From positions 186,001-250,000 of the forward strand of contig NZ_JACIEK010000002.1 of NCBI RefSeq assembly GCF_014196835.1: a stretch of DNA of 64,000 bases. Direction: 5' to 3'. This document shows positions 49,642 to 64,000 of the stretch, in pieces; the stretch's first letter is position 1, and every line of letters starts with the position of its first letter. Source of the DNA: Aureimonas pseudogalii (lineage in GTDB: Bacteria > Pseudomonadota > Alphaproteobacteria > Rhizobiales > Rhizobiaceae). The position numbers and the translations under genes were made by a program. Below the pieces are notes generated by a model. The model made no database searches. It was not told where the DNA came from and saw only the letters and a program-made list of their open reading frames with translations.

Positions 49642-50244
49642 CTAGCGCCCGGCCTTCGGTCCGGTGCGGGCGTCGAGGGCGGCGGCGAGGAGGCTGAGGC
49701 CGGACATCACGAGGGAGAGGCCGAGGAAGATGCCGACGGCCCAAGCGGCGGTGCCCGGCAGGCCGATGACGAGGAAGAAGGCGAGGGCCACGTTCAGCGC
49801 ACCGGCGGCGGCGAGCAGCCAGAATCGACCGGTGGAGGCGCGGAAGGCGCGCGCCAGCGACAGGATGGCGAGGCCTGTGAGGAGGAAGTAGACGGCGAGG
49901 ACGGTGGTCAGCGTCACCGCGCCGGCGAAGGCATCGGCGAGGATCACGAGAGCGAGCAGCGCCAAAAGCACGGTGAGGGTGAGGTTCGACCAGAAGCCGG
50001 CGGCGTCGCGCATGCGAAAGCAGGCGATCGCCGCGGCGGCGGCGAGCGAGAGGATCAGCCAGCCGAGGAAGATCGAGGTCGCCCGCGTCGCGAGCAGGGG
50101 CGCGACCAGCGCCGCGACGCCGGTCAACGCCATGAGAAGGCCTTGCAGCGAGAAGGCACGCCAGTGCTGGTGCAGGTAGCGCCGAACCTCGCGCCGCACC
50201 GTTTCGGGCGCCGCGGGCCGTTGCCTGATCTCGTTCAAATCCAT
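49642..50244 (-). CDS. HdeD-family (DUF308) membrane protein
   Basis: A 200-residue inner-membrane protein with six helices arranged as three hairpins, typical of HdeD/DUF308. The segments LHQHWRAFSLQGLLMALTGV, TSIFLGWLILSLAAAAAIAC and VILADAFAGAVTLTTVLAVY are characteristic. HdeD takes part in acid resistance at high cell density in E. coli; its role here is unproven. The start ATG at 50244 opens MDLNEIRQRP. The stop lies eight bases from mosaic repeat copy B, and the gene is 69 bp downstream of the FMN reductase gene on the same strand. Confidence 0.85.
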   Translation of the reverse strand: MDLNEIRQRPAAPETVRREVRRYLHQHWRAFSLQGLLMALTGVAALVAPLLATRATSIFLGWLILSLAAAAAIACFRMRDAAGFWSNLTLTVLLALLALVILADAFAGAVTLTTVLAVYFLLTGLAILSLARAFRASTGRFWLLAAAGALNVALAFFLVIGLPGTAAWAVGIFLGLSLVMSGLSLLAAALDARTGPKAGR

Positions 50245-50312
50245 GTGCCGTCCCGTTTCCCGTTCCCACCCCATCGTCCCATCGGTCCCGCTTGCCGATC
50301 GCCCGCGTTTCG

Positions 50313-50918
50313 TCAGCTCTGGCGCCCGAGAGCGCGTGCGTGGTCGAGCAGCGTCTCCGCGAGATCGTCGAGATGTCGCCGATACGTCTCGTCGGCAAGG
50401 CGTCCGGACGCCTCGAACGGGGCGCCCGCGACGCAGACGGCGCATTGCGGGGTCACGACTTCGGCACCGAGCGCCTGAAGCACGGCGCGCAGCGGCGCCA
50501 GAGCCGCCCGTCCGCCATCGGGCGCGTGCGAGGTCGAGGCGAGCCCGACCACGAGGCGGTGGAACGGGTGGACGGGCTGCGGCTGCTCGCGCGCCGCGGC
50601 GGCGATCCAGGCCACAGCGTTCGCAAGAAGCGGCGCCACCCCGTCGTGGACGGCGGGGGCAACGATCAGCAGCCCGTCCTGGAGGGCGAGCCGCTGGGCG
50701 AGGAGGCGGGCGTTCTCCGGCAGGCCGGGTGACCGGCCTGCCGGCGGGAGGGCGACGCCGGGCTCGGCGTCGAAGAGCGGCAGCGGATAGTCGGCAAGGC
50801 TCGCCGCCGTCAGCGCCACGTCGGTGACGGCGAGAAGCCGCGTCGCCTCGCCGGCCAGCCGCGCGGCGCCCGAGTCCGCGATCGCGGTGCCCGGCAGCAC
50901 GAGAAGGCGCGGGATCAA
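50313..50918 (-). CDS. NADPH-dependent FMN reductase family protein
   Basis: A 201-residue flavodoxin-like protein. It has the SsuE/ArsH-type opening LVLPGTAIADSGAARLAGEA, then YPLPLFDAE, the flavin-site LLIVAPAVHDGVAPLLANAV and VVGLASTSHAPDGGRAALAP. Normally these enzymes reduce FMN or act as quinone/azo reductases. Several positions deviate from the usual PEYN-G motif (here PAVHDG), so activity should not be assumed. The start codon is TTG at 50918, overlapping the stop of the methyltransferase gene as TTGA (50915-50918), so they are translationally coupled. Confidence 0.75.
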   Translation of the reverse strand: MIPRLLVLPGTAIADSGAARLAGEATRLLAVTDVALTAASLADYPLPLFDAEPGVALPPAGRSPGLPENARLLAQRLALQDGLLIVAPAVHDGVAPLLANAVAWIAAAAREQPQPVHPFHRLVVGLASTSHAPDGGRAALAPLRAVLQALGAEVVTPQCAVCVAGAPFEASGRLADETYRRHLDDLAETLLDHARALGRQS

Positions 50919-51556
50919 TGCCCAGACGTCCGTGAGGACCCGGTCGGCGTGTAGATCCAGACGCGGGCGGGAGGGATGTTGTCCCAGACGATGGGCGAGG
51001 AGGAGACCTCGAAGAGCCCGGCCACGGGCTTCACCGGCGGCGTCCAGAGATAGGAGAGCTGGGTCAGGTTGCCGCCCGGCAGGAGACGGGCGAAATAGCG
51101 CGCGAAGAGCGCCTGACGTTCGCGCTGCGCCATCTTCACGATCGGGATGGCGAAGAGGATGGTGGCAAAGCGCGTGGCGCCGGCGTCACGGAGCGTCTTG
51201 TCGAGATCGAACCCGTCGCCATGGATGACGTTGACCTCGGGGAAGCGACGCTGGAGCGTCTTTGCGAACTCGGGCTCGTACTCGATCGAAGTGATGCGCG
51301 AGGGCGCGACGCCGGCCTCCAGCAGCGCGCGGGTGACGACGCCGAGGCCCGGGCCGAGCTCCAGCACCGGGCCTTCGATGCCGGTGGTGGACGCCGCGAC
51401 CATGGCGGCGCAGTAGCTGGCCGAGGAGGGCGCGACGGCGCCGAGCGTCAGGGGATTGCGGACCCAGGTTCCGAAGAAGCGCAGGAGATCGCCCTGACGT
51501 TCGTTCTGGCGGTCGCGCGGTGGGTTCGGCGTGGGCGACCCGGATTGATCCTGCAT
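50915..51556 (-). CDS. PmtA-type phospholipid N-methyltransferase, paralogue 1
   Basis: A 213-residue SAM-dependent methyltransferase resembling Sinorhizobium/Agrobacterium PmtA (phosphatidylethanolamine N-methyltransferase). It has FFGTWVRNPLTLGAVAPSSA, the motif I VLELGPGLGVVT, SIEYEPEFAKTLQRRFP and the C-terminal NIPPARVWIYTP. The expected role is stepwise methylation of PE to phosphatidylcholine on the cytosolic membrane face. It lies 111 bp after paralogue 2 and overlaps the flavin reductase gene. The start at 51556 (MQDQSGSP) was chosen as the first ATG preceded by a reasonable GAGG; upstream residues (MLGNEATPP) overlap a palindrome. Confidence 0.85.
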   Translation of the reverse strand: MQDQSGSPTPNPPRDRQNERQGDLLRFFGTWVRNPLTLGAVAPSSASYCAAMVAASTTGIEGPVLELGPGLGVVTRALLEAGVAPSRITSIEYEPEFAKTLQRRFPEVNVIHGDGFDLDKTLRDAGATRFATILFAIPIVKMAQRERQALFARYFARLLPGGNLTQLSYLWTPPVKPVAGLFEVSSSPIVWDNIPPARVWIYTPTGSSRTSGH

Positions 51557-51608
51557 CCTCGATCCTCTCGTTCGGCCGGCCCCGTTCGGCGGCGTCGCTT
51601 CGTTCCCG

Positions 51609-51651
51609 AGCATTTCGCGTGGAAGCCGACCGGACTCCCACGCGAAATGCT
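51609..51651. repeat. 14-bp palindromic repeat
   Basis: AGCATTTCGCGTGG (51609-51622) and CCACGCGAAATGCT (51638-51651) pair perfectly with a 15-base loop, followed by TTAG. It fills most of the gap between the two methyltransferase genes. AGCATTT...AAATGCT ends are a common style of rhizobial intergenic palindrome. Confidence 0.8.
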
Positions 51652-51667
51652 TTAGTCGGCGAGTTTG

Positions 51668-52360
51668 TCAGGCTGACGAAGGCCGGGGTTCCGCGTCGTC
51701 GTTGCCGGCGGAGGGGAACGCTGCGCCTTCGCGACGATAGACGACGACGCGGGCCGGCGGCAGGTTGCGCTTGATCCACCGGCTGGGAAAGGCCGTGGCG
51801 CCGACGGCATCGGGCTTCACCGGCAGCGAGGGCGAATAGGTGAACTGAATGAACGGCGCGCCGGGGGGCAGCAGCGCAAGATAGCGGTCGAGGGCCCGGC
51901 TGCGCTCGGCTTCGGGCCGCGCCATCAGCGGCAGGGACGAGACGACCGCGGCGATGCGGCGCCCGTCGATCCAGCCGAGGAGAGCGGCCGGCGGGGTGTA
52001 GGCGTCGCCTTGCACGATGCAGATGCCGGGATAGCGCAGGCGCAGCAGGCCGCAAAACTCTGGCGCGTATTCGACGCAGGCCAGCCGCTCCGCCGCGATC
52101 CCACGCTGCAAGAGGCAGCGCGTCACCGCGCCGGTGCCCGGCCCGAGCTCGATCACCAGCGCATCGGGATCGTCGGGCACGAAGGACGCCATCAGCGTTC
52201 CCAGCGCCGCCGACGAGGGCGACAGCGCGCCGACGCCGAGCGGGCTGCGCAGCCATTCGCGCAGGAACCGGCCCTTGCCGGCGTCGCGCCCGCCCTTGTG
52301 CGAAATCTCTTGCAGCGCCGCCTCCCGGTTCGGGTTTCGAGACGTGTTTACGCGCGTCAA
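51668..52360 (-). CDS. PmtA-type phospholipid N-methyltransferase, paralogue 2
   Basis: A 230-residue SAM methyltransferase of the same family. It has FLREWLRSPLGVGALSPSSA, motif I VIELGPGTGAVTRCLL, VEYAPEFCGLLRLRYP and the family ending NLPPARVVVYRRE. Start is TTG at 52360, only 10 bp after the dnaJ stop, so it is probably transcribed with dnaKJ. It diverges substantially from its neighbour: SLPLMAR replaces AIPIVKM in the substrate loop. The two may divide the successive methylations of PE, or one may act on another lipid. Confidence 0.85.
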   Translation of the reverse strand: MTRVNTSRNPNREAALQEISHKGGRDAGKGRFLREWLRSPLGVGALSPSSAALGTLMASFVPDDPDALVIELGPGTGAVTRCLLQRGIAAERLACVEYAPEFCGLLRLRYPGICIVQGDAYTPPAALLGWIDGRRIAAVVSSLPLMARPEAERSRALDRYLALLPPGAPFIQFTYSPSLPVKPDAVGATAFPSRWIKRNLPPARVVVYRREGAAFPSAGNDDAEPRPSSA

Positions 52361-52370
52361 GAACGAAAGG

Positions 52371-53534
52371 CTACTCGCTCAAGCCCTCGAAGAAGTCCTT
52401 CATGCGCGCGAAGAAGCCGGTGGATTGCGGCGAGTTCTCCGACGACGAGATGTCCTCGAACTCTTCGAGCAGCTCGCGCTGGCGCCGCGAGAGGCTTTGC
52501 GGCGTTTCGATGGAGATCTGGATGAAGAGATCGCCCGTCTGCGCCGAGCGCAGCACCGGCATGCCCTTGCCCTTGACGCGGAACTGCTTGCCGAACTGGG
52601 TGCCCTCGGGAACCTTGACCCGCGACTTCTGCCCGTCGAGCGTCGTCACCTCGAACGTGCCGCCGAGCGCGGCGGTCGTCATCGACACCGGCACCTTGCA
52701 GAAGAGATCGGCGCCGTCGCGCTGGAAGAACTCGTGCGGCTTCACCGACAGGAAGATGTAGAGATCGCCCGCCGGGCCGCCGCGCAGGCCCGCCTCTCCT
52801 TCGCCGGCGAGCCGGATGCGGGTGCCGTCCTCAATGCCGGCCGGGATCGAGACCGAGAGGTTGCGCTCTTCCGGCAGACGGCCGTCGCCACCGCACTTGC
52901 CGCAGGGGTCGGCGATGATCTCGCCACGACCCTGGCAGGTGGGGCAGGTGCGCTCGATCGAAAAGAAGCCCTGCGCGGCACGAACGCGCCCGATGCCGCC
53001 GCAGGTCGGGCAGGCCTTCGGCGCGGTGCCGGTCTTGGCGCCCGTGCCGTTGCAGACGTCGCACTGGATGGTGGTGGGAACGCCGATCTCGGCGGTCTTG
53101 CCGGCGAAGGCCTCGTCGAGGCTGATCTCCATGTTGTAGCGAAGATCGGAGCCGCGCTCGCGGCCGGACTGGCCGCCGGCGCGCCGCCCGCCTCCCCCCG
53201 CGCCGCCCTGGCGCTGGCCGCCCATCATCTCGCCGAAGATGTCGTCGAAGATGTCGGCCATCGAGGAGGCGAAGTCGCCCTTGAAGCCGGCGCCGCCCTG
53301 GCCGTTCTGGAAGGCGGCATGGCCGAACCGGTCGTAGGCCGAGCGCTTCTGGGGATCCTTGAGCACCTCGTAGGCCTCGCCGATCTCCTTGAACTTGACC
53401 TCGGCGGCGTCGTCGCCAGGGTTCTTGTCTGGGTGATACTGCATGGCGAGCTTGCGGAACGCGGCCTTCAGAACCTTGTCGTCGCAACCTCTGGCGACGC
53501 CGAGCGTCTCGTAGTAGTCGACCTTCACGGACAC
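52371..53534 (-). CDS. dnaJ: Chaperone DnaJ
   Basis: A 387-residue type I Hsp40. The J-domain has [20 protein letters not shown] and the HPD motif in [11 protein letters not shown]; a Gly-rich linker ([18 protein letters not shown]) follows. Four CxxCxGxG zinc motifs ([32 protein letters not shown]) and the C-terminal peptide-binding domains complete it. It stimulates DnaK ATPase. The start is taken as GTG 53534 ([11 protein letters not shown]); GTG 53528 (MKVDYYETL) is equally possible. It lies 347 bp after dnaK behind a terminator hairpin. Confidence 0.96.
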
Positions 53535-53823
53535 CGTTTCACCGTTCTCATCGTCTGACAGGGGAACGGCGGGCACCGGGCCAGCCGCCTCGAATTCGCC
53601 AAGCCGGCCGCCCATGAGCAAGCCGAGCCGCAGCCTGCCTGCGCGGCGGGCCTTTCGCCGCATGTAGGGGCTGGCGGCCCGCGTTACCATAGGATGACGC
53701 GGCGCAAAAGCGCCGGACGCCTGCGCTGTCGTCCGCGAGCGGCCTTCGCATCCGTCGTCCCGTGCCGATGCGCCACGGCCTCGAACGCGCGCCCTTCATT
53801 GCCCGCCGCAAGGCGCCGGACAC

Positions 53824-53854
53824 GAAAAAGCCCCAGCCGATCCGGCCGGGGCTT
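53824..53854 (-). terminator. Terminator between dnaK and dnaJ
   Basis: On the minus strand AAGCCCCGGCC...GGCTGGGGCTT forms a strong stem followed by TTTTTCGTG. It lies 28-58 bp after the dnaK stop. Expression of dnaJ therefore depends on readthrough or on its own promoter in the 53535-53820 interval, in which no other gene is seen. Confidence 0.85.
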
Positions 53855-53881
53855 CTCGTCATCGCGATAGGACGTGAACGA

Positions 53882-55804
<1,923 letters not shown>

Positions 55805-55925
55805 GTCTGTCTCTCCTTGTTGAGCGCGCCGCCCGGACCCTCGCACGAGGCGTTCCGGCAAGCGGCACCTTAAGAATGGGTGGGTCGCCGGCAGGGATGC
55901 AGAACCCGACCGGCGAGGCTGGAGG

Positions 55926-55956
55926 CTATATATGAACGGGGTTTCGGGGGCGCAAG
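55926..55956 (-). promoter_or_regulatory. RpoH (sigma-32)-type promoter of dnaK
   Basis: On the minus strand CTTG (55956-55953) is followed by 18 bases and then CATATATAG (55934-55926). This agrees well with the alphaproteobacterial RpoH pattern CTTG-N17/18-CYTATNTNNG. The start site would be near 55919, giving a leader of about 115 bases. Confidence 0.75.
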
Positions 55957-56149
55957 ACGTCCTCGTCCGCCTCGTGCGGAACGCCCGTTCGAGCCTCGCG
56001 GATGCGGGGAGCTCCGGCGAAAAAAGCCGCTCGAACCCTCTCCTTTCGTCGGAACGCACGGGGCGGCGGCGTGTTGAGCCAGGGATAGCAAGTCGGCCGA
56101 ACGTTACAGGCGGGACGGCCCGAACACCCCGAGAACCGGAAGGCACGTC

Positions 56150-56224
56150 ATGCGCAGCATCATCTATCTCATCGGCCTCGTTGTCGTCGTCCTCTTCGTC
56201 CTGTCGCTTCTCGGCCTTCGCTGA
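56150..56224 (+). CDS. 24-residue hydrophobic membrane peptide
   Basis: A complete very short frame, ATG to TGA. It encodes [20 protein letters not shown] followed by LGLR: one Arg at the N-terminus, a 19-residue helix and a closing Arg. GGAAGG lies seven bases before the ATG. The gene is 17 bp upstream of the next gene, which has its own AAGGAG, so it heads the plus-strand envelope cluster. Peptides of this type, with a YLIGL-x-VVV-x-F-x-LS core, occur next to DUF3618-like genes in rhizobia as far as I recall, but no function is known. Confidence 0.6.
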
Positions 56225-56241
56225 TCTCAAGGAGCCCCCCC

Positions 56242-57027
56242 ATGTCCAACACGCAAGACCCCGCCAGCGGCGCCGACCGCTGGAACGCGGATCGTGACGC
56301 CGCGGCCCGTACGCTCGACCGCGAGGGCACGTCCGCAAGGGACGCGGCCTCTCAGGCCGCCGGCTCGATCCGCGACCAGGCCGCATCGCTCGCCTCCGGC
56401 GTGCGCGAGAGCGCGGAAGCCAAGGCCGAGACCGGAATCTCGGCCGCCGCCTCCAGCCTCGACGACTTCACCGCCGCGATCCGCAAGGCCTCGGACGAGC
56501 TGGGCGAGCGCGACCAGTCGATGGCCGCGCAGCTGGTGCGCGAGGCCGCGTCCGGTCTCGAGCAGGCATCCGGCGCGCTGAAGGGCAAGAGCGTCGGCGA
56601 GGTCACGCAGTCGCTGGCCGGCTTCGCCCGCCGCCAGCCCGCCGCCTTTCTCGTCGGCGCTACGCTGGCGGGCATCGCGCTCGGCCGCTTCGCGCGGGCC
56701 TCGTCGGACCATTCCGACGCCGCGCGCCTGCGCGACGCCGTGCCCACCGGCGCCTCGCAGCGCGCCCGCTCCGGCAGCATTCCGAGCGACGGGTTGAACC
56801 ATAGCGATCACGAGGCATCGGTGCCGTCGCGCGCGGGAAGTTCGGGCTTCGAGGCCGCCCGCGCCAATTCCCCCGCCGCCCATCCGGCATCGGTCGGCGT
56901 CGGCGGCACTTCGACGATCCGTCCGAGCGGCTCTGAAATGGGGGCGTCCGGTACGTCGGGCACCACCGGCATGGTCGGGCTCACCTCGACCTCGACCTTC
57001 GGAAAGGGACCTCTCGATGAGCGTTGA
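56242..57027 (+). CDS. Alanine-rich protein with one membrane helix
   Basis: A 261-residue protein. Residues 1-125 are a charged, Ala-rich amphipathic helical region ([40 protein letters not shown]). A membrane helix follows at [20 protein letters not shown], then a long disordered Ser/Gly/Thr-rich tail. Related proteins have been annotated as nutrient-deprivation-induced, without known mechanism. AAGGAG precedes the ATG. It overlaps the next gene by 11 bases. Its neighbours (holin-X and DUF3618 types) suggest an envelope or stress role. Confidence 0.7.
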
Positions 57028-57412
57028 ACCCCGCGAGGCACGTTCCGTGCCCGATCTCATCGGCGACGTGCTGCGTGAGACGACGGAGCTTTTCCGCACC
57101 GAAGGCAAGCTGATCCGCGCCGAGATCTCCGACAAGATCACACAAGTCCAGATCGGCGGCGGATCGATCGCGGCGGGGGCGATCTGCCTGCTCGTGGCGC
57201 TGATCGTGCTGGCGCAGGCGCTGGTCATCGCGCTCGCTCACGTCGTCGGCGCAGGCTGGTCGGCGCTCATCGTCGGCGTGGCGATCGCGCTCGTGGGCGT
57301 CGCGCTGCTTGCCAAGGGCAAGAAGGAACTCGAAACCGTCAGCCTGACGCCCGACCGCACGGTCGAGCAGTTGCAGAAGGACGGCCGGTTGGTAAAGGAT
57401 CAGACACGATGA
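57017..57412 (+). CDS. Phage-holin-X/YqjE-like (DUF1469) membrane protein
   Basis: A 131-residue protein with an N-terminal amphipathic helix (SVPDLIGDVLRETTELFRTE, GKLIRAEISD) and two membrane helices (about 48-72 and 78-98). It ends in a basic/acidic tail with LTPDRTVEQLQKDGRLVKDQ. This is the arrangement of the putative holin-X (DUF1469) family, which is not phage-related despite its name and often pairs with DUF3618 genes. The start ATG overlaps the preceding gene; the stop overlaps the next gene as ATGA (57409-57412). Confidence 0.85.
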   Translation: MSVEPREARSVPDLIGDVLRETTELFRTEGKLIRAEISDKITQVQIGGGSIAAGAICLLVALIVLAQALVIALAHVVGAGWSALIVGVAIALVGVALLAKGKKELETVSLTPDRTVEQLQKDGRLVKDQTR

Positions 57413-58503
57413 GCACGGAAACCGAACGCCTCGCCCAGGAGGCCGAACAGCGCCGGTCCTCGCTCGACCAGACTCTCGACAGCCTGAAGGAGAAGTTCTC
57501 GCCGGGCCAGATCGTCGACGAGGTCGCGAGCTACGTCCGCTCCGGCCAGGGCGCCGAGATGGTGCAGAACCTCAACCGGCAGGTCCGCGACAATCCGCTG
57601 GCGCTTGGTCTGATCGGCGCCGGCGCGGCCTGGCTGCTGCTCGGCCAGGGCGTGCGCGACAGCCGTCCCGCGAGCTTCGGCAGCATCTCGCCGCGCGGCC
57701 GTTCGCATGACGCATCGCCCGATCATTGGGCACAGGATGATCGCGACAATCGCTTCGAGGGACCGCTCGCCAGCCGCAGCGCGGGTATCGTCGGCGGCGG
57801 CAGCGCGGGCCGGGCCGACATCGGCGGATGGGCCGGTGCGTCGTCGTCCACATCGCCCGGCGTGACGCAGCGGGCGCGCGACGTGGCATCGGGTGCCGCG
57901 GGCTCCGTCGGATCGGCGGCGTCGAGCGTCGGCAGCACCGTCTCGTCGGCCGCCTCCACCGCCGGCAACGCGGTGTCGGATGCCGCCTCCAGCGTCGCGG
58001 ATGCGGTGTCGGGCGCCGCGTCCAGCGTCGCCAGCGGCGCCAGCCACCTCACCGAGAGCGCGGGTGACGCGGTGAGCCGCGCGGGGCAGGCGGGCTATCG
58101 CACGGCCGCCGAAGCGGGCGACCGGGTCGCGGCCTATGGCCGGCAGGCCAAGCGCAGCTTCTTCGAGACGCTGCAGGACGAGCCGCTGGTGCTCGGCGCG
58201 GTGGCGATCGCCATCGGCGCGGCGATCGGCGCGGCCCTGCCCTCGACCCGCGCCGAGGACGAATGGCTCGGCGAGACGCGTGACAAGCTGCGCGACGACG
58301 CGCTCGATTACGGCCTCGACACGCTGGACAAGGCGCAGACCGTGGCCGGAAAGGCCTACGAGGCGGCGAGCGCGCAAGCCGAGGACAAGGGTCTCGTGGC
58401 GAAAGGCGGAGAGGGCGAGACGATCGCCGACAAGGTGTCTTCGGTCGTGAAGGCCGCCACCGACGGCGCCAAGGACGAGGCGGGCAAGCAGGGCCTCGTC
58501 TGA
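57409..58503 (+). CDS. DUF3618 protein with long serine/alanine repeat region
   Basis: A 364-residue protein. The N-terminal 75 residues match DUF3618: AEQRRSSLDQTLDSLKEKFS, then DNPLALGLIGAGAAWLLLGQ with a membrane helix. The middle (about 145-220) consists of degenerate 11-residue repeats such as AASSVGSTVSSAAST, AGNAVSDAASSVADAVS and GAASSVASGASHLTE, of the LEA/apolipoprotein style. A second helix, PLVLGAVAIAIGAAIGAALP, follows at about 260-280. This pattern suggests a membrane-bound stress protein with an amphipathic repeat that can coat membranes; inference only. It is the last gene of the cluster. Confidence 0.85.
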   Translation: MSTETERLAQEAEQRRSSLDQTLDSLKEKFSPGQIVDEVASYVRSGQGAEMVQNLNRQVRDNPLALGLIGAGAAWLLLGQGVRDSRPASFGSISPRGRSHDASPDHWAQDDRDNRFEGPLASRSAGIVGGGSAGRADIGGWAGASSSTSPGVTQRARDVASGAAGSVGSAASSVGSTVSSAASTAGNAVSDAASSVADAVSGAASSVASGASHLTESAGDAVSRAGQAGYRTAAEAGDRVAAYGRQAKRSFFETLQDEPLVLGAVAIAIGAAIGAALPSTRAEDEWLGETRDKLRDDALDYGLDTLDKAQTVAGKAYEAASAQAEDKGLVAKGGEGETIADKVSSVVKAATDGAKDEAGKQGLV

Positions 58504-58535
58504 TCCTCGACCGCTCGTCGCAGACTGCATGGAAA

Positions 58536-58568
58536 AAGGCCGCGAACCCGGATCGGGTTCGCGGCCTT
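58536..58568. terminator. Bidirectional terminator between DUF3618 and PBP1A genes
   Basis: AAGGCCGCGAACCC and GGGTTCGCGGCCTT form a perfect 14-bp stem with a GGATC loop. The minus-strand exit reads TTTTTCC and the plus-strand exit CTTGGTTTTCG. It therefore serves the two convergent genes (stops at 58503 and 58598). Confidence 0.93.
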
Positions 58569-58597
58569 CTTGGTTTTCGATATGGGTGTTTTCGAGG

Positions 58598-61306
58598 TCA
58601 GTTGCCGAAGAGACCCCGGAACAGCGAGCGGTCGCTTTCGCGCCCGCCCGGCGCCGGGCCCTCCAGCACGGCGTCCGGCGGCAGATCCTCGGGGCGCACG
58701 GGAATGGCGCGGCCCTCGAGCACGGCATCGGGCGGGAGATCGCCGCGGCGCACCACGCGCGGAGGCCCGAGATCGGCGGGCGGACGCATGCGAGCGGGCT
58801 CGCCGTAGCCGTATTCGGGCGGCGGGCCGCCATAGGCGTCGTCGCCGTACGGGTCGTCCTGCCCATAGGGATCGCTGCGATCGGGCTCGCCGCGATCCGC
58901 CGGCAGAGGCTCGCGGGCGTCCGGCGCGTCGCGGTAGATGCGGCGCATCGGCGGCTCCTCGCGCGAGGCGTAGCCGGGCTCGCCGCGCGGCGGTGCGGCC
59001 TCGCGCACGGCCGGGCGGTCGTCCTGTCCCGGCACCACCGAAGCGATGCCGTCCTGCGGCGGGAGCGCGCCGGGCTCCTGCGCAGGAAGGCCCGGAAGAG
59101 GCTGGCCATAGGGGTCGCTGCCGCCGGCCGGCAGCTCGGTGTTTTCGTAGACGGGATTGCCCGAGGCGTCGTAGCCGACAATCTGCCCGCCGTAGCCGGA
59201 GGCGACCGGCAAGTTGGCGGGATCGCCGATCTTGTAGTTGCCCGGCAGCGGGGTCGCCGGCAGGCCCTCGTGCGCGGCGACCATGAAGGTCTTCCAGGCG
59301 TCGGCCGGCAGCGAGCCGCCGGTGACCTGACGCATCGGCTTGCCGTTGTCGTTGCCGAGCCAGACGCCGGTGGTGAGGTTGGCGGTGTAGCCGACGAACC
59401 AGGCGTCCTTGAAATCCTGCGTGGTGCCGCTCTTGCCCGCCACCTGCCAGCCCGGCAGCGCCGCGCGCCGGCCGGTGCCGGAGGTGACGACGCGCGTCAG
59501 CATGGCGTTCATCATGCCCACGATGTCGGCGGTGACGATCACCGGCGGCACCTCGGCGGGACGCTCGTAGAGCACCTGCCCCGACACCGTCGTCACCTTG
59601 TTCACGAGATGCGGGGTCGCGAGATAGCCGCCATTGGCGAAGGGCGCGTAGGCGCCGGTCAACTCCAGCAGCGAGACCTCGGACGTGCCGAGCGCCAGCG
59701 AGGCGTTGTCGACCAGCGGCGAGGTGATGCCGAAGCGCTTGGCGGTCTCGATCACGGCGGCCGGGCCGACCTCGGCGGTGAGCTTGGCTGCCACGGTGTT
59801 CAGCGACTTCATCACCGCGTCGGCCACCGTCACGGGCCCGCGGAAGCGGTTGTCGTAGTTCGAGGGCGTCCAGTTGCCGATGCGGATCGGCGCGTCGTCG
59901 ACGATCGTTTCGGGCCGCACGCCGAACTCCAGCGCCGTCTCGTAGACGAAGGGCTTGAAGGCCGAGCCTGGCTGCCGCTTGGCCTCGGAGGCGCGGTTGA
60001 ACTGCGAGGTCGCGTAGTCGCGCCCGCCGACGATGGCGCGGATGGCGCCGGTGCCGTCGATCGAGACAAGCGCACCCTGGCTGACGTTCTGCGTCGCCTT
60101 GTCGATCGTGGCGGCGATGGCCTGCTGGGCCTCTCTCTCGAGGCCGAGGTCGATCGTGGTGGAGACCACCACGTCCTCCTTGATGTCGCCGACGAGCACC
60201 GGCAGGTCGCGCATCACCATGTCGGCGGCGTAGTGCTCGGGGCCGGTCCAGAAGGACCGGGCCTTGGTCGGCTTCTCGGCCTTGGCGGCGTCGAACTCGC
60301 CCTGCGTGATGAAGCCCTCGTCCTCCATCGCCTGCAGCACCACCTCGGCGCGCGAACGTGCGGCGGCGGGATCGCGCACCGGCGAGAGGCGCGAGGGGGC
60401 CTTCAGGACGCCGGCGAGCGTCGCGGCCTCGACCAGCGACAGCTCGTCGGCGTTCTTGTCGAAATAGCGCCGTGCGGCAGCCTGCACGCCTGTGGCGCCC
60501 GATCCGAAATACACCCGGTTGAGGTACATTTCGAGAATCTGGTCCTTGGTGAACTTGTGCTCCAGCCAGAGCGCCAGGATCGCCTCCTGCACCTTGCGTT
60601 GCAAGGTCTGGTCGGGCGTCAGAAAGATGTTCTTGGCGAGCTGCTGGGTCAGCGTCGAGCCGCCCTGCACGGTTTCGCCCGCCGCCACGTTCTCGGAAAG
60701 CGCGCGCACGATGCCGACGGGATCGACGCCCCAGTGCGAGTAGAAGCGCCGGTCCTCGATCGCCATCACCGCCTGCGGCAGGTAGGGGCTCATCCGGTCG
60801 AGCGCCACGGCCTCGCCGCCGGTGGTGCCGCGGTCGGCCAAGAGATCGCCGGTGACCGAGACGATCTTGACGTTGGGCGGGCGCGCGGGGATCGCCCAGG
60901 CCTCCTGCGGCAGCTTCACCGCGAAATAGCCGATCACCGCCGCGCCCGCGATACCGCCCCAGAGCGCGAGGAGCACGCAGAGGCGAACGAGATGGCCGAA
61001 AAGCGAGCGGCGCTTGCGCCGACGCCCGAAGAAGCCGCCGCCGGCATTGTCGTTGCCGCCGGAACCGCCCCCGCCCCCGCCGCGCCGCGTGCGCCCGCTG
61101 CCGAGGTCGCGCGAGATCGGTGGATCGCCGCGGCGCGTCGCCGAGCCTTCGATCTCGCGTTCGCGGCGGGTGCGGGAGGATCGTGCGGCTGCGGTCGAGG
61201 GAATGACGGCGCGGTCGTCGGCGGAGACGCGGATCTCGCTCTCGTCGCCGCCACGCGCGGCACCGAAGGTCGGCTCGATCCTGTCGTCCCGTCGCTTGGC
61301 CGCCAT
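58598..61306 (-). CDS. Penicillin-binding protein 1A (bifunctional transglycosylase/transpeptidase)
   Basis: A 902-residue class A PBP. A 100-residue charged cytoplasmic region with a Gly-run (SGRTRRGGGGGGSGG) precedes one membrane helix (about 103-128). The glycosyltransferase-51 domain has MAIEDRRFYSHWGVDP (Glu184), GGSTLTQQLAKN and the YLNRVYFGSGATGVQAAA block. The transpeptidase domain has SxxK as Ser448 in GSAFKPF, SLN at 501-503 and KSGTTQ at 625-630. A disordered Pro-rich tail (after about 720) ends with two copies of LPPDAVLEG. It polymerises and cross-links peptidoglycan. Confidence 0.95.
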   Translation of the reverse strand: MAAKRRDDRIEPTFGAARGGDESEIRVSADDRAVIPSTAAARSSRTRREREIEGSATRRGDPPISRDLGSGRTRRGGGGGGSGGNDNAGGGFFGRRRKRRSLFGHLVRLCVLLALWGGIAGAAVIGYFAVKLPQEAWAIPARPPNVKIVSVTGDLLADRGTTGGEAVALDRMSPYLPQAVMAIEDRRFYSHWGVDPVGIVRALSENVAAGETVQGGSTLTQQLAKNIFLTPDQTLQRKVQEAILALWLEHKFTKDQILEMYLNRVYFGSGATGVQAAARRYFDKNADELSLVEAATLAGVLKAPSRLSPVRDPAAARSRAEVVLQAMEDEGFITQGEFDAAKAEKPTKARSFWTGPEHYAADMVMRDLPVLVGDIKEDVVVSTTIDLGLEREAQQAIAATIDKATQNVSQGALVSIDGTGAIRAIVGGRDYATSQFNRASEAKRQPGSAFKPFVYETALEFGVRPETIVDDAPIRIGNWTPSNYDNRFRGPVTVADAVMKSLNTVAAKLTAEVGPAAVIETAKRFGITSPLVDNASLALGTSEVSLLELTGAYAPFANGGYLATPHLVNKVTTVSGQVLYERPAEVPPVIVTADIVGMMNAMLTRVVTSGTGRRAALPGWQVAGKSGTTQDFKDAWFVGYTANLTTGVWLGNDNGKPMRQVTGGSLPADAWKTFMVAAHEGLPATPLPGNYKIGDPANLPVASGYGGQIVGYDASGNPVYENTELPAGGSDPYGQPLPGLPAQEPGALPPQDGIASVVPGQDDRPAVREAAPPRGEPGYASREEPPMRRIYRDAPDAREPLPADRGEPDRSDPYGQDDPYGDDAYGGPPPEYGYGEPARMRPPADLGPPRVVRRGDLPPDAVLEGRAIPVRPEDLPPDAVLEGPAPGGRESDRSLFRGLFGN

Positions 61307-61470
61307 GCGTGATGCCCTCGTCCTGTCGTCGCTTGCCGAAGATAGGGTGCGGCGCGCGCATGTCGCCGGTACCGGAGCCTCCGAGCCTTCCCGCGTCGCC
61401 GCGGTCCGTCGAGCGCAGGCTATGCGACACGAGGATTCGGCTTCGTGGACTGAAGTTTAAATGCGGCGAT

Positions 61471-61485
61471 TTAACGGGGCGTTAA
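61471..61485 (-). promoter_or_regulatory. CtrA-box-like TTAA-N7-TTAA upstream of PBP1A
   Basis: TTAA-CGGGGCG-TTAA occurs 165 bp upstream of the PBP1A start. It has the spacing of the CtrA consensus TTAA-N7-TTAAC but lacks the final C on either strand. Another TTTAA lies at 61456. The gene could thus be cell-cycle controlled; tentative. Confidence 0.35.
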
Positions 61486-61533
61486 GGAAGCCTGCCAAGG
61501 CATGAACGATGGAAAGGGACGACCATCCAGGAG

Positions 61534-61560
61534 GGGCCGGCGCCTCGAAGGCACCGGCCC
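61534..61560 (-). terminator. Hairpin downstream of the alpha/beta hydrolase gene
   Basis: GGGCCGG-C-GCC pairs with GGC-A-CCGGCCC (one mismatch) around TCGAA. It lies 22 bp after the hydrolase stop on the minus strand. No T-tract follows, so it may be a weak terminator. Confidence 0.45.
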
Positions 61561-61581
61561 GGATCGCTTAGGCGGCCGAGG

Positions 61582-62403
61582 TCAGACGCGCGCGAAGGCG
61601 GCGAGATCGGTGGTCAGGCGCTCCTGCTCGGTGTGGTGCAGGCCGTGGGGCGCCCCCTCATAGGTCTTGAGATGTGCGCCGGCGATGAGCTTGGCCGCCT
61701 TCTCGCCGGAAACCTCGAAGGGCACGGTGGCGTCCTTCGTGCCGTGAATCACCAGCGTCGGCACGGTGAAGGCCTTCATGTCGGCGCGGAAGTCGGTGGT
61801 GGAGAACGCCTTCACGCAGGCGATCGTGGAGCGCAGCGAGGCCTGCAGCGCGAGGTTCTGCGTCCAGGCGAGATAGTCCGACGAGATCGAGAAGTTCAGG
61901 AGCCCGACGCCGTAGAACTGCTTGCCGAAGGAGGCGAGGAAGGCCGGCCGGTCCTTTTCGAGATCGGCGATGAAGCCGTCGAAGACGGAACCGTCGACGC
62001 CGTCCGGGTTGCTCTCGTCCTTCAGGAGGTATGGCGTCACCGCCGAGACGAGCACGGCCTTGCCGACGCGCTTGCCGCCGTGGCGCGACATGTAGCGAGC
62101 GACCTCGCCGCCGCCCATCGAGAAGCCGACGAGGACTGCGTTGTCGAGATCGAGGTGCTCGAGCAACGCCGCCAGATCGTCGGCGAACGTGTCGTAGTCG
62201 TAGCCGGTGCCGGGCTGCGACGAGCGGCCGAAGCCGCGCCGGTCGTAGGAGACGACGCGGAAGCCTTGGTCCACCAGCTTGTCGGCCTGGTAGTCCCACA
62301 TGTCGGCATTGAGCGGCCAGCCGTGGATGAGGACGATCGGGCGGCCTTGGCCCCAGTCCTTGTAATAGAGATCGACGCCGTCTTTCGTCGTGAGGATGGT
62401 CAT
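61582..62403 (-). CDS. Alpha/beta hydrolase, cofactor-free haloperoxidase/esterase type
   Basis: A 273-residue alpha/beta-hydrolase closely resembling bacterial non-haem chloroperoxidases and esterases. It starts MTILTTKDGVDLYYKDWGQG and has the oxyanion segment IVLIHGWPLNADMW. The nucleophile Ser lies in LVGFSMGGGEVARY (about residue 95), the catalytic Asp in VIHGTKDATVPF (about 226) and His in EGAPHGLHHTEQ (about 255). No signal peptide. The substrate cannot be assigned; perhydrolase, lactonase or esterase activity is possible. The start at 62403 is preferred over the longer frame from 62442, which adds a Pro-rich lead. Confidence 0.88.
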   Translation of the reverse strand: MTILTTKDGVDLYYKDWGQGRPIVLIHGWPLNADMWDYQADKLVDQGFRVVSYDRRGFGRSSQPGTGYDYDTFADDLAALLEHLDLDNAVLVGFSMGGGEVARYMSRHGGKRVGKAVLVSAVTPYLLKDESNPDGVDGSVFDGFIADLEKDRPAFLASFGKQFYGVGLLNFSISSDYLAWTQNLALQASLRSTIACVKAFSTTDFRADMKAFTVPTLVIHGTKDATVPFEVSGEKAAKLIAGAHLKTYEGAPHGLHHTEQERLTTDLAAFARV

Positions 62404-62507
62404 GCCGCGTGGCTCCTTCGAAGGGCTTGGTCCCGGAGGCAATGGATCGCGTGCGAGACAGTTCCGTCACAGGGGGCATGTGGCGCGCCCGGCCGAGGCC
62501 GCACGCG

Positions 62508-62541
62508 AAAAAGCCCGGGCGCCTTACGGCACCCGGGCTTT
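62508..62541 (-). terminator. Intrinsic terminator of the mipA-like gene
   Basis: AAAGCCCGGG pairs with CCCGGGCTTT, with an inner GCC/GGC stem and a TTAC loop. On the minus strand the exit is TTTTTCGCG. It lies 22 bp after the stop of the outer-membrane protein gene. Confidence 0.93.
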
Positions 62542-62562
62542 CGAGAACGAGCGACGCGTCGC

Positions 62563-63423
62563 TTAGAAGAGGTCGAGCGAGAAGCGCTTCGACAGGCCGA
62601 TGCCGGCGAAGAACTGGTCTTCCTTGCCGATCTTCACGATCGGGGAATCCTCGGCGTCACCGATCATCCGCTCGTAGGCGGCGTTGGCGTTGAGGAACCA
62701 GTCCGGGCGGAACTCGTAGCGCGCGGACGCCGCGGCGCCCACCGACTTGAAGCCCGAGCCCGCGTCGTAGGGCGAGAGGCGGCCGAAGGAGGCGAGGCTC
62801 TCGATCGGCGTCACCGAGAAGTAGGTGCTCATGTACTCGGCCGAGGCGAAGGTGGTGCGCGGGCCGAGCTTCAGCGTCCACTGCTCGTTGGGGCGGGAGA
62901 TGAAGTCGACGCCGGCGCCGCCGACGAAGCCCTCGGCCTCGCCGAACGCATAGCGCGCCTCGCCGTAGATCTCGGCGCTGAAGGTCTCGTAGACCGGGAA
63001 TTCGTAGCCGGCGCGAAGGCCGAGCTGGTAGGTCTCGTCGAGCGCGCGGGTGCCGAAGAGCTCCGGATAGTCGGCGGCGTTGCGCTTGTCGATGAAGCGG
63101 AATGACGGCGAGATCTTGAAGCCGCCGTAGCTCTCGTTCGGCGAGCCGATGGCGCCGAGGCCGGGGATGTTGAGATACTGCAGCGCGAAGATCGGGTAGC
63201 CGGAGACGATGTAGTCGCTGGCGCCCTCGTAGGCGGGCTGCGTGGAGACGCCGCCGCCGAGCTCGATGATGAGATCGGCATTGTTGACGATGGCGACCTC
63301 GCTCGTGTCGACGGTGGCGACCGCGTCGGCGGCAAGCGCGGGAACGGCGGTCGAGCCCAGAAGGGCGGCGACGAGAAGGGCGGTGCGCGTGGTCACGGCG
63401 GCAGGCTCCGGAAGGAATGTCAT
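62563..63423 (-). CDS. MipA/OmpV family outer-membrane protein
   Basis: A 286-residue beta-barrel protein with a Sec signal peptide (residues about 10-32, LLVAALLGSTAVPALAAD). It carries IIELGGGVSTQPAYEGASDY, the conserved G-x-G-x-x-x-P-x-Y-x-G-S start of MipA/OmpV, and ends with phenylalanine (SKRFSLDLF), the beta-barrel C-terminal signal. MipA scaffolds MltA and PBP1B in E. coli, and OmpV-like proteins serve as porins or adhesins. A link to the neighbouring PBP1A gene is tempting but unproven. The ATG at 63423 gives a plausible lead; a GTG ten codons later would also leave a complete signal. Confidence 0.88.
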   Translation of the reverse strand: MTFLPEPAAVTTRTALLVAALLGSTAVPALAADAVATVDTSEVAIVNNADLIIELGGGVSTQPAYEGASDYIVSGYPIFALQYLNIPGLGAIGSPNESYGGFKISPSFRFIDKRNAADYPELFGTRALDETYQLGLRAGYEFPVYETFSAEIYGEARYAFGEAEGFVGGAGVDFISRPNEQWTLKLGPRTTFASAEYMSTYFSVTPIESLASFGRLSPYDAGSGFKSVGAAASARYEFRPDWFLNANAAYERMIGDAEDSPIVKIGKEDQFFAGIGLSKRFSLDLF

Positions 63424-63654
63424 GGTGTCTTGTGCACCATTGTCGGAAGGGTGGGGCAACATTCAATCGCCGAGGCCCCGCAGCGCGGCACTCGGAAGCG
63501 CCGCTGTTGCCCGTTGGGCACGAAACCCGTCGGTAACCGATCGATGGCGACCCATCACGCCTCGGTGATCACCCGCTTCGCGCGATTGCGGCGGCGGGCC
63601 GCCTCGCTAGGGTGGCGGACGGTGCCGGGAGGGCATCGCTTCGGGAGAACCACG

Positions 63655-64000
63655 ATGGTGAAACGACGGACCCTCATCGCCGGCGCGCTGGCCGGCACGA
63701 TGCTGGCGCTCGGCGCGGCGAGTTCCTTCGCACAGGACTATCCCGCCAAGCCGGTGACGCTCGTGGTACCCTTCGCGGCCGGCGGCTCCACCGATCTCGT
63801 GGCGCGCACGCTCGCCCAGCGCATGAGCGAGTCGCTCGGCCAGCAGGTGCTCGTCGACAACAAGGGCGGGGCGGGCGGCAATCTCGGCGCGAGCTTCGTG
63901 AAACAGGCGGCGCCCGACGGCTACACGATCCTGATGGGCACGATCGCGACCCACGCGCTCGTCGCCTCGCTCTACGCCAAGCCCCCCTTCGATCCCGAAA
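63655..64000 (+). CDS. TctC-like tripartite tricarboxylate transporter binding protein (cut by window edge)
   Basis: The first 115 codons of a periplasmic Bug/TctC-family binding protein. A signal peptide (MVKRRTLIAGALAGTMLALG, cleavage about SSFAQ) is followed by DYPAKPVTLVVPFAAGGSTD, the near-invariant Bug opening. LGQQVLVDNKGGAGGNLGAS and APDGYTILMGTIATHA continue the fold. Such proteins bind carboxylates or related small molecules for TctAB-type transporters; no partner is visible within the window. GGGAG stands 9 bases before the ATG. The C-terminal two thirds lie beyond the window. Confidence 0.88.
   Translation, partial: MVKRRTLIAGALAGTMLALGAASSFAQDYPAKPVTLVVPFAAGGSTDLVARTLAQRMSESLGQQVLVDNKGGAGGNLGASFVKQAAPDGYTILMGTIATHALVASLYAKPPFDPE

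Follow-up and report, generated by a model that had tools for sequence, protein, structure and literature searches.

A 24-codon gene for a conserved hydrophobic peptide heads a probable general-stress operon in Aureimonas pseudogalii

Survival of Alphaproteobacteria is aided by the general stress response, many of whose effector genes are without a known role. In Escherichia coli, the yqjD-yqjE-yqjK operon, which is regulated by RpoS, encodes an amphipathic, Gly-rich membrane protein, YqjD, annotated in RefSeq as ribosome and membrane associated, followed by a protein of family PF07332, YqjE, and by a third gene. Here, we describe a locus of related layout in a stretch of 64,000 nucleotides (nt) from Aureimonas pseudogalii (assembly GCF_014196835.1, contig NZ_JACIEK010000002.1, positions 186,001 to 250,000 of the forward strand), the whole of which is referred to below as the window. 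The locus is a predicted four-gene operon headed by a 24-codon open reading frame (ORF). Judged by sequence, this ORF is a conserved, unnamed gene for a 24-residue hydrophobic peptide that is without a family in the three libraries searched (Pfam, NCBIfam, and PHROGs), and the operon is probably under the control of a general-stress promoter.

The E. coli operon is the closest comparison because gene 3 of the window operon belongs to PF07332 together with YqjE and gene 4 carries a DUF3618 domain. In both operons, an amphipathic or Gly-rich membrane protein is followed by a PF07332 protein and then by a third gene, and both contain an 11-nt overlap, which lies between yqjE and yqjK in E. coli and between genes 2 and 3 here. 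Unlike the locus in A. pseudogalii, the E. coli operon has no annotated 24-residue peptide at its head and answers to RpoS, gene 2 of the window is not a DUF883 protein, and DUF3618 stands where E. coli has YqjK. A second comparison is offered by the PhyR-NepR-EcfG regulon, as the motif and spacing upstream of the peptide gene are those published for the EcfG1 promoters of Rhizobium etli, GGAAC-N16-CGTT (PMC3892343), and for promoters of Methylobacterium extorquens, GAAC-N16,17-C/GGTT (PMC4814048), and the anti-sigma factor NepR is present in the window's genome. The passages of these two reports on which we draw mention no such peptide (PMC3892343 and PMC4814048), and we infer that it would escape any regulon compiled from annotated genes. 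Among short proteins, YohP of E. coli (27 residues) is likewise very short and hydrophobic and is the nearest named family, but the window peptide scores 9.5 bits against an NCBIfam cut-off of 58 and is not a member; in Pfam, the best E value for the YohP family was 0.052, and of 18 members of the peptide family, 3 gave a YohP match at E values of up to 1. SEP6 of Sinorhizobium meliloti shares with the peptide a length of fewer than 30 residues and a predicted transmembrane helix, and it is described as translated, recovered in a membrane-containing pellet fraction, and conserved in Hyphomicrobiales (PMC10117765). SEP6 may belong to the same family, a possibility raised by its description rather than by its sequence (PMC10117765). 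Small-protein catalogues may already hold the peptide as an unnamed cluster (PMC11364881 and PMC11796252). No paper on the peptide was found among the matches listed for the open-access literature, judged by title and the start of the abstract, and fragments of its sequence matched no paper there.

The distribution of the peptide was established by a search of 61 genomes and by profile searches of 297 genomes of the order, 289 of the class, and 349 of the phylum, which were drawn evenly from larger groups and are partly the same genomes. At E values of up to 0.1, matches were obtained in 92 genomes of the order, 71 of the 297 matching at up to 1e-3 and most of the weaker matches lying inside long frames, and in 30 genomes of the class, 20 of them at up to 1e-6; at E values of up to 0.01, 38 genomes of the phylum matched, including 10 outside the class. 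The copies counted here are fetched loci rather than every profile match, namely, 156 of 177 that are distinct over the ORF and the 60 nt upstream of it, with ORFs of 19 to 30 codons and profile scores above 18; L096, L097, L192, and the weak loci L045-L049, L052, and L100-L109 were excluded, and one poor copy, L193, was kept. Length is preserved almost exactly (24 residues in 146 copies, 22 in 7, and 25 in 3), and among the 124 distinct 24-residue sequences Gly9 and Gly22 are invariant, while Leu18 (123 sequences), Val12 (121), Tyr6 (117), and Ser19 (112) are nearly so. The proportion of nonsynonymous differences (pN) among 13 Aureimonas copies is 0.075, against 0.416 for synonymous differences (pS), with 66% of the differences falling on third codon positions, and the corresponding values for all 146 24-residue copies are 0.24 and 0.63; the pattern is that of a gene under purifying selection as a protein. 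A purine-rich motif resembling a ribosome-binding site precedes 153 of the 156 copies, compared with 31 to 50 when seven other offsets served as controls. The preliminary description of this DNA, drawn from the sequence alone, had proposed a 24-residue peptide with its own GGAAGG, and the ORF, its residue-by-residue and length conservation, and its low pN/pS bear this out. The family extends far beyond the cluster at which that description was directed, a breadth that a reading of one sequence could not reveal.

The peptide is probably a single transmembrane helix. It reached no family above cut-off in Pfam, NCBIfam, or PHROGs, and a comparison with profiles of the Protein Data Bank (PDB) gave a single weak match (E value of 1.9). 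A comparison of the 24-residue consensus with plasmids and phages gave no useful match, although a low-complexity filter may mask such a query. Three proviral contigs (L209, L210, and L211) each carry the peptide with the stress-type box described below, possibly within the host flank of an integration site, and in L209 and L211 the adjacent gene is presumably a tyrosine integrase. In a fourth case (L208), a viral contig of 77 kb contains the peptide about 25 kb away from its nearer end, and neither of the peptide's recurrent partners (see below) is evident among the three long ORFs shown. Tandem peptide genes, with starts about 130 to 140 nt apart, were seen in L124, L125, L130, L132, and L139, all of one genus (g48), and in L170; in the five g48 pairs, the second copy is the more diverged.

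A promoter motif accompanies the peptide over much of the class. When counted from GGAAC to GTT, the R. etli consensus has a spacer of 17 and that of M. extorquens a spacer of 17 or 18. The upstream regions of 147 alphaproteobacterial copies were reduced to 137 by removing those at least 70% identical, and a limit of 250 nt, of our own choosing, was applied. GGAAC-N17/18-GTT occurs within this limit in 77 of the 137 regions (N17 in 49 and N18 in 28), whereas each of the other 22 spacers (d from 6 to 29 in GGAAC-Nd-GTT) occurs in 0 to 4 of 137, and in 200 runs of simulated sequences the motif turned up in 0.9 of 137 regions on average and never in more than 4. Control regions contained the motif in 3 of 135 cases at 250 to 500 nt upstream and in 1 of 137 in the 250 nt downstream, and it was found in none of the 9 copies from outside the class. 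Of the 77 boxes, 65 end at a distance of 23 to 82 nt from the start codon of the peptide; among the 49 N17 boxes, 27 have C or G immediately ahead of GTT, where the window copy has T. At least one boxed copy is present in 39 of 56 alphaproteobacterial genera, the genus labels having been assigned by hand from search tables, with L024, named Aureimonas, counted with the window's genus. In a number of the 60 regions that lack the exact form, GGAAC is paired with ATT or CTT instead of GTT, and several copies from genera g55 and g48 carry GGAAC-N18-ATT. No sigma-70 promoter was found between positions 55800 and 58700 of the window. The preliminary description had regarded the cluster as a stress-related membrane system, and the promoter sequence common to its relatives makes the stress connection probable.

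In the window, the peptide gene ends 17 nt short of gene 2, genes 2 and 3 overlap by 11 nt, and genes 3 and 4 overlap by 4 nt (Table 1); the overlaps expected from the preliminary reading are thus present between the three larger genes and absent between the peptide and gene 2. A scan of the region returned two terminator-like sites (mean of 1.2 in shuffled sequence), the strong one being that which closes the operon. The gene dnaK starts at 55804 on the opposite strand, back to back with the peptide, as had been stated, and at a distance of 345 nt from it.

Table 1. Features of the peptide operon and their positions in the window
Feature	Position	Strand	Characteristics
Candidate sigma-EcfG-type promoter	56051..56075	+	GGAAC-N17-GTT; ends 74 nt before the peptide start codon
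Peptide ORF, 24 residues	56150..56224	+	Hydrophobic; GGAAGG upstream; member of an unnamed conserved family
Gene 2, 261 residues	56242..57027	+	Ala-rich N-terminal part, Arg-x-x-Pro, Gly-rich hydrophobic segment (residues ~128-153), low-complexity tail; YqjD-like in layout only
Gene 3, 131 residues	57017..57412	+	Membrane protein of PF07332 (Phage_holin_3_6 / YqjE family)
Gene 4, 364 residues	57409..58503	+	N-terminal DUF3618, Gly-rich hydrophobic segments with a Ser/Ala repeat between them
Intrinsic terminator closing the operon	58536..58568	+	15-pair stem, 3-base loop, T-rich tail

Among eight named relatives of the genome, seven are Aureimonas, and the other is Limoniibacter. Of 21 Aureimonas genomes, 12 carry both the peptide and gene 3, and 9 carry neither; in 5 of these 9, weak peptide matches (E values of about 0.07) were obtained with no such short ORF. 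All 12 loci of the genus (L001-L012) have the operon between dnaK and a penicillin-binding protein, and dnaK is not beside the copies examined from other genera; we reject dnaK as a functional partner, since the adjacency is seen only within the genus, and the dnaK neighbourhood lends no support to a stress role. At L041, the peptide and an EcfG-type box lie a few hundred bases before two genes that we take to be groES and groEL. The gene order peptide-gene 2-gene 3-gene 4, whose conservation in related genomes had been named as a check, recurs in 29 of the 156 copies (26 with masking), 12 of which are the window copy and those of 11 genomes of the same genus; the nine genera concerned are Aureimonas, Limoniibacter, and seven others. 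In 30 of the 156 copies (28 with low-complexity masking), the peptide is followed immediately, on the same strand, by gene 2, at gaps of 7 to 63 nt, and gene 3 or gene 4 is within the stretch examined in 36 (33 with low-complexity masking). A second partner, a membrane protein of about 300 residues that has multiple helices and begins with a YVDW-like segment (e.g., L055, L063, L076, L092, and L111), is directly downstream in 41 of 156 copies (42 with the partner in all), at gaps of -1 to 47 nt. It reached no family above cut-off in Pfam (three examples) or NCBIfam (two examples), it occurs together with gene 2 in no copy, and the two are not detectably related. An apparent match of the gene 2 frame to the second partner family (43 rows) was an artefact of an out-of-frame reading of the peptide DNA that precedes gene 2; it vanished once that DNA was cut off, masking alone being insufficient. 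Genus-level labels of gene context that carry this artefact for the window's genus were not used.

Among the larger genes, gene 3 has the clearest affiliation, matching PF07332 with an E value of 1.3e-25 (90.1 bits; cut-off of 28.4); E. coli YqjE also passes the cut-off (E value of 3.5e-21; 75.8 bits). An AlphaFold2 model of gene 3 places helices at residues 11-77, 79-107, and 113-129. A search of the PDB with its sequence (no fold search was made) gave no match at E values of up to 1, and a search of plasmids gave no useful match. A literal phage holin was considered and rejected in view of the dnaK and penicillin-binding protein flanks in all 12 loci of the genus, and none of the four proteins matched a holin family in PHROGs at E values of up to 0.1. 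Gene 2 has the layout of YqjD, in that an Ala-rich part precedes an Arg-x-Asn/Gln-Pro motif and a Gly-rich segment, but it is not a DUF883 protein: it gave no match to DUF883 in Pfam at E values of up to 1, and hhalign gave a probability of 9.9 over 23 columns. Nowhere in the genome did DUF883 exceed its cut-off, and none of its five weak matches is at this locus; one of the weak DUF883 matches in the genome (E value of 0.018; G000:C1:4807-4995) lies about 0.8 kb from NepR. Gene 4 is a DUF3618 protein by its match to PF12277 (E value of 9.5e-9; 35.8 bits; cut-off of 24.9), and its Gly-rich segment weakly resembles that of gene 2 (probability of 29 percent). We presume that the ndi genes are related to gene 4. 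One of them, ndiA, is among the RpoE2-dependent genes of S. meliloti, according to the part of that report consulted (PMC2651895), and a single paper was among the open-access matches listed for DUF3618. The Ser/Ala repeat, which had been called LEA-like (late embryogenesis abundant), sits at residues ~155-211 of gene 4; no LEA family was matched in Pfam at E values of up to 1, only weak Senescence and apolipoprotein matches below cut-off, and the designation is not supported. Residues 76-231 of gene 4 (window positions 57634-58101) matched tail tape-measure families of PHROGs (best E value of 2.4e-5), which we take for compositional because they fall on the low-complexity part.

We lean, with modest confidence, towards the view that a general-stress operon makes an inner-membrane complex in which the peptide is a small subunit. 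Stress would free EcfG from NepR, RNA polymerase would start at the candidate promoter, and the peptide and genes 2, 3, and 4 would be carried on one message ending at the terminator. The peptide would be translated from its own ribosome-binding site and inserted into the inner membrane as a single helix, where it may pack as an accessory subunit, perhaps via Gly9 and Gly22, against transmembrane parts of the proteins encoded downstream: the YqjD-like, YqjE-family, and DUF3618 proteins in the window and the unrelated multi-helix protein in other lineages. In cells under stress or starvation, such a complex would alter the inner membrane and possibly offer a docking site to ribosomes or other cytoplasmic partners. 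What the sequences show directly is that the gene exists, is selected as a protein and is widely conserved, that it has the promoter motif and recurrent neighbours, and that gene 3 belongs to PF07332; transcription by EcfG, translation, membrane insertion, partner binding, and a stress role are what we infer from this. For the membrane-coating complex of the preliminary description, nothing was found in favour.

A number of results weigh against this view. The exact motif is absent from 60 of the 137 upstream regions, 17 of 56 genera are without a boxed copy, and none of the 11 copies of g55 or the 10 of g48 has an exact box. On the opposite strand, the motif is found in 14 of 137 regions at N17 and in 1 at N18, and the N17 sites are perhaps divergent stress promoters. 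In the window's own genome, GGAAC-N17-GTT occurs at 77 sites and a reversed-pattern control at 81; because the motif is not enriched there, the single site in the window would mean little without the comparison across relatives. The conserved positions of the peptide do not fall on one helix face, by computed angles. When the profiles of gene 3 and YqjE were aligned directly, over 116 columns, the probability was 5 percent and the E value 0.0076, and we regard the two as distant because this probability is low; the gene 3 model is of modest quality (mean pLDDT, 69.4; pTM, 0.39).

The same side of the balance holds the fact that neither recurrent partner is directly downstream in 85 of 156 copies, the neighbours being various and some copies apparently monocistronic, so the true binding partner may be something else. 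The 85 copies suit the alternative that the peptide is stress induced and acts alone, tuning membrane properties, its neighbours being merely coregulated, as do the apparently monocistronic copies, some of which have an EcfG-type box (e.g., L069 and L118), and the lack of detectable relationship between its two recurrent partners. We think this unlikely, though deserving of serious consideration, since 71 of the 156 copies are followed directly by one or other partner type and the near-invariance of Y6, G9, V12, L18, S19, and G22 suggests a specific contact rather than bulk hydrophobicity.

The remaining alternatives concern the nature of the ORF. Its size and hydrophobicity, and the tandem pairs in g48 and one further genome, would fit a type I toxin-antitoxin system in which the peptide is the membrane toxin and an antisense RNA counteracts it. 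No Rfam family was matched at positions 50000-64000, a test blind to unknown antisense RNAs; the position at the head of operons, the good ribosome-binding site, and the stress-type promoter in many genera weigh against such a toxin. Conservation throughout the class is also deeper than is usual for these toxins, and we consider the proposal improbable. The ORF might instead encode a leader peptide, translated so as to control the genes behind it, in keeping with its shortness and its first place in the window operon. This is very improbable, given that its amino acids are more conserved than its nucleotides and that the sequence is kept beside unrelated downstream genes and even where the next ORF runs in the opposite direction (L043, L085, L118, L119, L121, and L122, as called by a crude gene caller). 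An untranslated ORF arising by chance in a GC-rich leader, which its shortness and absence from family libraries might suggest, is rejected as scarcely credible by the conserved length and sequence, the low pN/pS, and the ribosome-binding-like motif.

The reading in which the peptide is a small subunit of a general-stress membrane complex can be widened, more tentatively and at rather less than an even chance, to one in which this undescribed 24-residue family belongs to the core of the alphaproteobacterial general stress response, has gone unnoticed there, and is a small subunit shared by at least two unrelated inner-membrane stress complexes. The peptide may predate the hold of the EcfG system over it, because it is also found outside the class without that promoter. 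As its sequence and near-exact length are kept over the class and a stress-type promoter accompanies it in 39 of 56 genera, the peptide is a likely effector of the general stress response that has been hidden by length-based annotation. The shortness of the gene may thus have caused part of this response to be overlooked, and a YqjE-type membrane complex may be one of the things that the response builds, with the peptide providing a short and easily tested target.

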